A stretch of DNA of 38,739 nucleotides, taken from positions 1-38,739 of the forward strand of contig JALGVR010000038.1 in assembly GCA_025774605.1 (NCBI GenBank), in the 5' to 3' direction. Positions 19,344 through 21,490 of the stretch are shown here, one piece after another. The DNA comes from a bacterium. Its GTDB lineage: Bacteria > Electryoneota > AABM5-125-24 > Hatepunaeales > Hatepunaeaceae. The notes beneath the pieces were generated by a model. The model ran no database searches. It saw only the letters and a program-made list of their open reading frames with translations, and was not told the origin of the DNA. The translations under genes were made by a program, and so were the position numbers. How positions within the stretch are numbered: the stretch's first letter is position 1; each line of letters starts with the position of its first letter.

Positions 19344-19665
19344 TTGCTGTTGAAGAAGTGTAACAAGTGTCATACCTGCGGAAGCGGGTATCCAGAAATA
19401 GTTGTAAACAGTGGATTCCCGCCTGCGCGGGAATGACGGGGCGATGCGCGGGAATGACGGGGCGATAGTGGATTCCCGCCTGCGCGGGAATGACGGGGCG
19501 ATAGTGGATTCCCGCCTGCACGGGAATGACGGGGCGATAGTGGATTCCCGCCTGCGCGGGAATGACGGGGCGACAGTGGATTCCCGCCTGCGCGGGAATG
19601 ACAGTCAGAGGATTTTCGGTCAGGCATTAAAGAAAAGTAATAAACTAAATAAACGGAGAACAGGC
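19344..19665. other. Intergenic region holding a hairpin array
   Basis: It contains the 36-base tandem array (19411-19602) and, just before the TPR gene, an AT-rich leader with GGAG at 19655-19658. The frame DSRLRGNDG read through the array on the plus strand is a repeat translation, not a gene. Confidence 0.7.
19411..19602. repeat. Tandem array of 36-base hairpin repeats (five copies plus one partial)
   Basis: Each unit is GTGGATTCCCGCCTGCGCGG followed by GAATGACGGGGCGATA. The core ATTCCCGCctGCGCGGGAAT is a near-perfect palindrome. Units start at 19411, 19468, 19504, 19540 and 19576; a truncated unit lies at 19446-19467. One unit has CAC for CGC in the loop side. There are no spacers, so it is not CRISPR. 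The same palindrome family occurs singly at 29072-29154 and in degraded form at 21408-21490. In RNA it would form a row of stable hairpins before the TPR gene. Confidence 0.85.
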
Positions 19666-20688
19666 ATGAGATTTATCACCTGGAGTCTTATGCTGGGTAT
19701 GGCTTTAACGCTTGTTTTTGCCCAACCTGGAATCTCACAGGATTATAAAGCCCAACTTGAGGAGGTATTGGCCAGGATTGAATCGCTCAACAAACAGATG
19801 GAAGCGGCGTCAAACTCCGGCGACCTTGACAAATACAACACCCTGAAAGCGGAATGGGAAGCCCTCCAGCCGAAAGTAAAGGAGCTCAAGGACAAGATCA
19901 ACGCCGACGTTCAAGCGGATGTCAGAGCCAAAGCCAAGTTCAACGAGGGCAACGGTCATATCAAGGTCGGTCGCTACAGGGAGGCGATCGCCTCTTACAA
20001 GGAATCGATCGAATTGGATCCCGACAACCCGGCGGTATATTACATGCTGGGCCTGGCTCAGACCAAGCTGAAGTCATTTACTGAAGCTCAAGCGGCATTT
20101 AATCGAGCAATCGAATTGAGTCCCAATTACGCGCTTGCCTACCTGGCGTTGGGAAACATCGCTTCCAGGCAGAAAAATAACAGCGCTGCACTGGAGAATT
20201 ATACTCGCGCCGTGGAGATCGATTCGACGCTCGCCAAGGCACACTTCGGCATCGGCAACGTGCATCTGCGCTCGAAACGTTATCCACTCGCCGCGGAAGC
20301 CTATCGCAAAGCAGTTGAAATCAATGATAAATTCGGCGACGCCTGGGTCAGCCTGGGACGGGTATTGTACGAACAGAAGAAATACAAGGATGCCATCCCC
20401 GCCCTGGAGAAGGGAACGACTCTGAGCCCCAGATCGGTGATCGGCTGGTATTACCTGGCGGAAGTATATAACGAAACCAAAGCCTACTCGAAGGCGCTTG
20501 CCGCGGCGGGGAAATGCCTTAAGGTCAAGCCGAACTACGCGGCTGCCTGGTACTCCAAGGGTATCGCTCTGATGAACCTTGGTCGCAAAAGTGAGGCAAT
20601 TGCGGCTTTCGAGAAAGCCAAGGAAGACCGCGTCTGGCGTGAGAGGGCCGATTATTTCGTCAAAAAGATCCAGGGGAAGATACAGTAG
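19666..20688 (+). CDS. Secreted tetratricopeptide-repeat protein
   Basis: This 340-residue protein has an N-terminal signal (MRFITWSLMLGMALTLVFAQ), a coiled-coil segment (about 28-85), then about seven TPR units with the A-G-Y/F-A-P pattern, for example VGRYREAIASYKESIELDP and YALAYLALGNIASRQKNNS. TPR arrays hold other proteins together; no catalytic motif is present. I chose the ATG at 19666: the open frame continues upstream only through the repeat array and gives repeated DSRLRGNDG, an artefact. GGAG lies seven bases before this ATG. The 3' end overlaps a reading frame that leads into the CMD-like gene. Expected location: periplasm. Confidence 0.9.
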   Translation: MRFITWSLMLGMALTLVFAQPGISQDYKAQLEEVLARIESLNKQMEAASNSGDLDKYNTLKAEWEALQPKVKELKDKINADVQADVRAKAKFNEGNGHIKVGRYREAIASYKESIELDPDNPAVYYMLGLAQTKLKSFTEAQAAFNRAIELSPNYALAYLALGNIASRQKNNSAALENYTRAVEIDSTLAKAHFGIGNVHLRSKRYPLAAEAYRKAVEINDKFGDAWVSLGRVLYEQKKYKDAIPALEKGTTLSPRSVIGWYYLAEVYNETKAYSKALAAAGKCLKVKPNYAAAWYSKGIALMNLGRKSEAIAAFEKAKEDRVWRERADYFVKKIQGKIQ

Positions 20689-20858
20689 CATCTCCAGAAC
20701 ACGAACAGCACCTTTACCGCATCGCCGCCGCCCTCGTCTCCGGCGATGAAGATACCATCCGGCACCTGCTGCAGCGGGCGATTGGTTCGGGTGCATCCGC
20801 CGCTCAAATACGGGAAGTCATCCTGACCAGCTACCTGTTCGACGGTTATCCCACGGCG

Positions 20859-21311
20859 TTGGAAGGCTATAGACTGCTCTCGGAAATCTCAGATCCGTCC
20901 GGTGTTGACAGGGCGGATTTCCATTATAGCGCCGAAAACATATCAACCTGGCGAGAGCGTGGTGAGAAGCTCTGCCGGAAGATCTACAGCTCGCAGTATG
21001 AGCCGCTGATGGCGAGGGTCGCCCGGGTCGCTCCCGAGCTGTCCGAGGCGATGATCGTCGAAGGCTACGGCAAGGTGCTGTCGCGTGAAGGGCTTGAGCC
21101 ACGCCGGAGGGAATTGTGCGTGGTTGCAATCCTGACGGTCAAGTATAAACCGAGACAGTTGCTCAGCCATGCCCTCGGCGCGCTCAGGCTCGGCGCGACC
21201 CCCGAACAACTGAAGAACACCGTGGAGACGGCAGCCGCTTTCTCATCCGCTGAAAATAGTGAGAAGGTCAGGGAGATAATTGAGAAAGCGATCTCCCGGA
21301 TTTGCCCGTAA
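20859..21311 (+). CDS. Carboxymuconolactone decarboxylase (CMD)-like protein, start uncertain
   Basis: From the TTG at 20859 the product is 150 residues. The C-terminal part (LSREGLEPRRRELCVVAIL, then RQLLSHALGALRLGATPEQ) fits the AhpD/CMD fold, with the conserved His but without a CxxC redox pair. The frame continues upstream without stop to 20643, and that part also looks like the normal N-terminal helix of the family (SAAQIREVILTSYLFDGYPT). Yet no ATG, GTG or TTG exists upstream in frame. The upstream frame overlaps the TPR stop codon in the -1 frame. A non-canonical start, a frameshift fusion with the TPR gene, or a base error could explain this. Confidence 0.7.
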   Translation: MEGYRLLSEISDPSGVDRADFHYSAENISTWRERGEKLCRKIYSSQYEPLMARVARVAPELSEAMIVEGYGKVLSREGLEPRRRELCVVAILTVKYKPRQLLSHALGALRLGATPEQLKNTVETAAAFSSAENSEKVREIIEKAISRICP

Positions 21312-21377: not shown

Positions 21378-21490
21378 CGGGTGACAAGTTACCCGCGCCA
21401 CACAATTGATCCCCGCGTGCGCGGGTGACACTCCTCAGTGGGGCGGGACTCCGTGCCTGCCCTTTTGATTCCTGCGCCGGCAGGGGTAAC
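21378..21490. repeat. Degraded hairpin repeats of the GCGGG family
   Basis: Three small palindromes occur in a row: CGGGTgacaagttACCCG (21378-21395), CCCCGCGTGCGCGGG within 21408-21430, and CCTGCGCCGGCAGG within 21467-21490. The second and third keep the frame GATTCC...GGTGAC or GGTAAC of the intact repeat at 19411-19602, so they look like decayed relatives. Confidence 0.55.

Follow-up and report, generated by a model that had tools for sequence, protein, structure and literature searches.

The window, that is, the whole 38,739-nt stretch of DNA analysed here, is a complete contig (G000:C143) of the metagenome-assembled genome G000, which amounts to 2.83 Mb in 175 contigs. In the region considered, a putative peptidase-like gene is followed by a beta-helix gene, a TPR gene, a CMD (carboxymuconolactone decarboxylase family) gene, and dnaK, the last four being assigned by Pfam. 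According to tblastn, the relatives G006, G002, G001, and G007 share this gene order, and so does G003 over the part covered by its short contig. G004 has this order without a match to the TPR gene, and G005 is the exception, with the TPR and CMD genes on two contigs and no other gene of the order found on the stretches taken. The TPR gene was detected in six of eight relatives of the family at E <= 1e-30, and its product bears a hydrophobic, signal-like N-terminal stretch, as judged by eye. The C-terminal ends of the TPR proteins, read in five of these six relatives (the end in G005 was missed by the search pattern), are near-identical in length in G006, G003, G002, and G001 and one residue longer in G007. 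In a scan for promoters and terminators, one site resembled a promoter and two resembled terminators, numbers within the range of shuffled sequences. Directly 5′ of the TPR gene (19424–19602), a 36-nt unit is repeated in tandem in 4.4 copies with a 97% match, and a GC-rich motif resembling this unit by eye lies near 21400, 3′ of the CMD gene.

The features at the junction of the TPR and CMD genes, with the evidence for each, are the following:

19666..20688, forward strand: TPR-repeat gene, the upstream partner, with the stop TAG at 20686–20688 (Pfam TPR families)
20662..20667, forward strand: AAAAAG run in the TPR gene, read in frame as AAA AAG after C; probably no programmed slippery site
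20672..20676, forward strand: AGGGG, Shine–Dalgarno-like, within the TPR coding sequence and 8 nt ahead of GTA (sequence; weak evidence)
20685..20687, forward strand: GTA, the proposed start codon, sharing two bases with the TPR stop (GTAG) in the −4 geometry (ASPE pattern, start-less relative)
20685..21311, forward strand: two-module CMD-family protein, 208 codons and stop, as read from GTA (Pfam, AlphaFold2)
20688..20699, forward strand: ASPE codons, the first conserved protein-coding stretch past GTA (comparison with G002)
20859..20861, forward strand: TTG, the sole standard start codon ahead of the C-terminal part; a conserved internal leucine (residue 59 from GTA), not a start (alignment)

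The CMD frame (20643–21311, forward strand) consists of 222 open codons, the first ATG, GTG, or TTG among them being the TTG at 20859, so that no such codon is present at or upstream of the conserved N-terminus. As an earlier note on this DNA had pointed out, the frame stays open back to 20643 and is −1 relative to the TPR gene; the overlap between the two amounts to 46 nt. The same note had proposed that coding sequence extends upstream of the only standard start, and this proves to be correct: the stretch 20685–20858 has a codon score of +7.8, as compared with a mean of 11.1 for true frames and of −14.4 for 253 open wrong frames, of which a fraction of 0.004 reaches +7.8. The codons 20685–20858 are real coding sequence, and the 14 overlap codons (20643–20684), with a score of −2.8 in the CMD frame, do not score as coding.

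The TTG at 20859 falls in a TALEG motif, its position being occupied by leucine in 18 and by isoleucine in one of 19 aligned sequences, the window's included. In all 19, it is preceded by 53–75 residues, with the starts of the relatives chosen by us from standard codons (ATA in the case of G001); orthologues starting at the TTG position, which would have spoken against upstream coding, are thus not found. Because the upstream codons are coding and the leucine is conserved internally, a start at 20859 would remove a real part of the fold; the standard CMD reading frame, which begins at this leucine, loses the first 58 codons. Within the coding sequence of G000, ATG, GTG, and TTG are missing from 139 of 5450 internal stretches of 72 codons, and at this rate the absence of start codons is unremarkable within a gene, yet remarkable at its 5′ end. 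When a 286,528-base sample of G000 with 183 called genes, the window included, was scanned for start-less genes, four showed a coding-like stretch (score of at least 10) ahead of the first standard start, the CMD gene among them. The other three stretches face longer reading frames that score 108, 262, and 129, as against 22, 35, and 21, and are antisense shadows, since the opposite frames are both longer and far higher-scoring. The upstream stretch of the CMD gene is a real coding anomaly.

The encoded protein belongs to the CMD family, both by its Pfam score and by its fold. PF02627 is matched in two stretches of the 222-codon frame with 57.5 bits against a cut-off of 23. The AlphaFold2 model of the 208 residues read from GTA, built with 19 sequences, has a mean pLDDT of 94.6 and a pTM of 0.91 and represents a complete fold in which helix 1 (residues 4–19) is preceded by a three-residue tail; its best PDB match is 4g9q (E 5.4e-6, TM 0.76, 207 alignment columns). 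Over the whole length, the protein is 61% identical to its two nearest relatives, those of G006 and G003. Two more specific identities were rejected. The score for PcaC, 4-carboxymuconolactone decarboxylase (TIGR02425), 42.9 bits, is far under the equivalog cut-off of 155.7, and the CxxC motif that forms the active site of the AhpD alkylhydroperoxidase does not occur in the 208 residues.

Out of 32 matches among 61 genomes, 30 loci were examined; 29 of them come from the phylum (L024 does not), and one (L018) is cut by a contig end. The phylum is taken to be Electryoneota/AABM5-125-24, in which Tariuqbacter has been placed (PMC10439189). A standard start is present within the 5′ part of the CMD frame in 28 of the 30, the window and L006 (G001, JABGPL010000135.1) being the only loci that have none. 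G001, which belongs to another genus, shows the same −1 overlap, and its first 67 codons contain no ATG, GTG, or TTG. In G002 (L004, MWJR01000110.1), the overlap with the TPR gene is also −1, and an ATG lies 18 nt upstream of the junction codon. At the junction of the TPR stop and the CMD frame, the sequence reads GTAG in the window, ATAA in G001, and ATAG in G002, and the distance from the junction codon to the conserved leucine is 9 codons in both G000 and G002 and 10 in G001. Whenever genes overlap in −1 at a TAR stop that is preceded by a purine, an NTA codon arises at this point automatically; its presence is therefore not independent evidence across the three genomes. In local alignments, most close relatives enter at query residue 21–23, while G002 enters at 6 and G001 at 4; these extensions into the overlap speak against a sharp boundary of coding and were read as a consequence of TPR conservation.

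G006 and G003, the closest relatives by identity, start their CMD genes at a TTG five residues further in, past an intergenic insert, and ASPE is thus dispensable in them. The insert contains inverted repeats, with 25-nt arms at 88% in G003. In G006 (L074:4906-4995), between the TPR and CMD genes, the repeat has perfect 28-nt arms and a 34-nt spacer, and it resembles a small mobile-element insertion that broke the TPR–CMD overlap. In the CMD tree, three of ten inner branches are starred, and neither the order within the family nor the ancestral state of the junction is resolved by it.

A sequence error, one of the three options named in the earlier note, appears highly improbable on these comparisons. 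It is true that the draft state of G000, a metagenome-assembled genome in 175 contigs, would allow for a sequencing or assembly error, and that at least one frameshift is apparent at another place in G001. However, the TPR match reaches its stop and ASPE is in frame from the last base of this stop, leaving little space for an indel; a GTG at 20685 would abolish the TPR stop. Moreover, the assemblies of G002 and G001 share the frame relation, G001 being start-less with the same −1 overlap and G002, from a third genus, having the same overlap and a matching ASPE.

The position of the start is suggested by a comparison of the window with G002. The 12 nt that follow the junction codon contain four differences, each of them at a third position of the CMD frame, and ASPE is kept; if differences were random, such a pattern would be expected in 1 of 495 cases, though it was counted after being noticed and concerns 12 nt in one genome pair. 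In the 24 nt before the junction codon, the 11 differences are distributed as 5/4/2 over CMD positions 1/2/3, no more than a mild tilt to the TPR frame, whose third position is CMD position 1. Deeper in the same pair, third positions account for 2 of 5 differences in codons 17–21 and for 21 of 50 in codons 22–57, a weak tilt. We take this pattern to mean that the CMD frame is coding from ASPE onward, which places the start at or before 20688; a position far upstream of this point is disfavoured by the low coding score of the overlap. Between 20673 and 20721, GTA 20685 is the only in-frame codon one base away from a standard start. Judging from this evidence, the CMD gene most likely starts at GTA 20685. 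A point against such a start is that G002 may use the ATG located 18 nt upstream of its junction codon.

Another near-cognate start would be quite unlikely, although TTA 20652 upstream and ATC 20721 downstream, for example, are both in frame and one base off a standard start, and ATC is reported as the start of infC of Streptomyces (PMC5472188). With TTA 20652 as the start, the protein would include overlap codons whose score in the CMD frame is non-coding, and with ATC 20721, which is residue 13, it would lose ASPE together with residues 4–12 of helix 1. The putative ribosome-binding site is of little help here. The AGGGG at 20672–20676 forms a duplex of −6.5 kcal/mol with a canonical anti-Shine–Dalgarno sequence, and a duplex of −6 is attained by 17% of 402 random coding 20-mers and by 29% of 134 approximate gene starts. 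CAGGGGAAG occurs in G003 as well, where no gene begins at that point. The Shine–Dalgarno-like stretch is within chance, and Shine–Dalgarno strength discriminates poorly.

The earlier note had also considered a frameshifted TPR–CMD fusion and drawn attention to the A-run AAAAAG, whose position (20662–20667) it gave correctly; the distance to the TPR stop is 18 nt rather than the 19 that it stated. A programmed −1 frameshift at this run would indeed suit the frame relation, since the CMD frame, −1 to that of the TPR gene, has no stop from 20643 onward, and in G002 and G001 it likewise passes the junction without a stop. Nevertheless, it is very unlikely that this occurs. A full slippery site is A AAA AAG, and the context here, C AAA AAG, falls short of it. 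The homologous sites are AAG AAA in G002 and AAG AAG in G001, so the slippery site is not conserved, and AAA AAG is present at the homologous site of G003, where the genes do not overlap. In-frame AAA AAG was counted 33 times in 70,397 sampled codons, seven times as C AAA AAG. The RNA of 20640–20780 is less stable than its shuffles (z +1.75, 196 of 200 shuffles being at least as stable, for folds free of pseudoknots), so that no downstream structure better than shuffles was seen, and the coding score of the overlap in the CMD frame is poor. A fusion would also link the TPR protein, which is apparently exported, with an enzyme, no signal being seen by eye in the CMD relatives. In G006 and G003, the TPR protein ends like the window's though no CMD gene overlaps its gene, and no TPR–CMD fusion was found among the relatives read. 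A rare start codon is thus the best supported of the three options that the note had listed; the note left the codon unnamed, and the evidence points to GTA 20685.

If the CMD gene starts at GTA 20685, the T and A of this codon are shared with the TPR stop (GTAG), and the arrangement fits the −4 geometry provided that GTA is the start, as proposed. Such pairs are well represented in the literature: −4 overlaps are the commonest junction, described as NTGA (PMC12548453, PMC10666635), and termination–reinitiation has been reported for −4 NTGA pairs in which, as in GTAG, start and stop share two bases (PMC6728339, PMC10666635, PMC12548453). In the available portions of these texts, the pairs are ATGA and GTGA, and non-canonical ATT is discussed only for −5 overlaps, whereas the stop is TAG in the window and TAA in G001, hence an NTA start. 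In the G000 sample, there are 27 gene pairs in which the downstream frame continues in −1 through the stop of the upstream gene. NTGA, with a standard start as the junction codon, accounts for 18 of them, CTGA for one, and NTAR for eight. Standard −4 junctions are thus common in this genome. Of the nine pairs other than the 18, eight show a standard start within −3 to +14 codons, and the CMD gene is the only one with none. Eight such pairs in the G001 sample comprise three NTGA whose junction codon is a standard start, the rest having one at +1 to +21. In this sample, one of 107 genes shows a coding-like stretch (score of at least 10) before its standard start, and this gene continues in another frame. 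The start-less counts for G001 represent a floor, since its CMD gene, though in the sample, was not called by the gene caller; it scores near zero with the G000 codon table.

The −4 stop/start geometry with NTA in place of NTG makes termination–reinitiation probable. Ribosomes ending translation of the TPR gene would remain at the junction and reinitiate with initiator tRNA on the weak GTA; that GTA makes two weak pairings with this tRNA is a point against such a start. The CMD protein, 208 amino acids long with fMet as its first residue, would then be made in a small amount proportional to TPR translation. The arrangement may have originated from an NTGA overlap in which a change of the stop from TGA to TAG or TAA turned NTG into NTA. 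Coding reaches the junction, the next four codons are kept at the protein level, and the same geometry recurs in a relative that is start-less as well; with these data, a start at GTA 20685 with reinitiation from the TPR stop and a low CMD yield is the best explanation and probably the right one. Among the three tRNAs detected in 31 loci scanned (of 40 sampled from G000 and G001), there was no initiator tRNA.

It could be argued instead that the start was lost recently and that the CMD gene is poorly or not expressed, being in early decay, given that only two of the 30 loci, G000 and G001, have no standard start and that the sample holds one genome of the window's genus. This possibility is unlikely in view of the 208 intact codons with a normal coding score, the 61% full-length identity to the two nearest relatives, and the presence of the same state in G001.

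Starts outside ATG, GTG, and TTG are documented in bacteria: AUA in infC, ccpN, and citZ of S. aureus (PMC13009471) and GTC in sigR of Streptomyces (PMC5472188). The CMD gene resembles these cases in its non-standard start, and low, IF3-sensitive initiation is expected for it as for them; in the portions of these texts available, in contrast, their starts are not described as embedded in an upstream stop, and GTA is not among them. In one study, out of 61,358 reconstructed AUG starts, one switched to AUU and two to CUG (PMC5622118). A GTA start is called highly atypical in one published paper, and in the literature searched none was found to have been proven for a bacterium. NTAR junctions were likewise not found described in the literature searched, as far as its available parts go.

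Non-standard starts occur elsewhere in the lineage. Of 30 infC loci taken (L044–L073), 25 were readable with a looser motif and five were unreadable; in 14 of the 25, the sequence ahead of the conserved VRLI motif contains no standard start, in agreement with infC elsewhere. G000 infC is no example because in-frame TTG and GTG lie upstream of the motif. In tsaD of G001 (L102:6697-7779, reverse strand), a gene that is normally essential, there is no ATG, GTG, or TTG before the conserved N-terminal motif; AAAGGA lies upstream, and the upstream coding score is 6.8. By eye, ATC AAA CAA CCA in G001 corresponds to GTG AAA CAA CCG in G003, with three more codons before the motif. Among nine genomes, eight tsaD start regions were readable, seven of which have a standard start near the motif.

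A broader proposal, which we regard as tentative and on balance doubtful, is that switching of NTGA stops from TGA to TAG or TAA creates a class of NTAR junctions at which reinitiating ribosomes would accept AUA or GUA, that the Electryoneota family tolerates such starts (GTAG and ATAA in CMD, ATC in tsaD), and that gene finders miss or truncate the genes concerned. For the CMD gene itself, the components of the arrangement are already known, and their combination looks new. If the GTA reading is right, reinitiation next to a stop would tolerate a start codon hardly usable for de novo initiation, the output of the downstream protein would be fixed at a low fraction of that of the upstream gene, and gene finders restricted to ATG, GTG, and TTG would truncate or drop such genes. 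The interest of the case is modest unless the NTAR class turns out to be general.

Finally, a G001 gene for a protein with a T9SS-type sorting domain (L103:2567-3832, reverse strand) has a 5′ part that continues in another frame, which may reflect a frameshift, the assembly, or a real feature of the gene.
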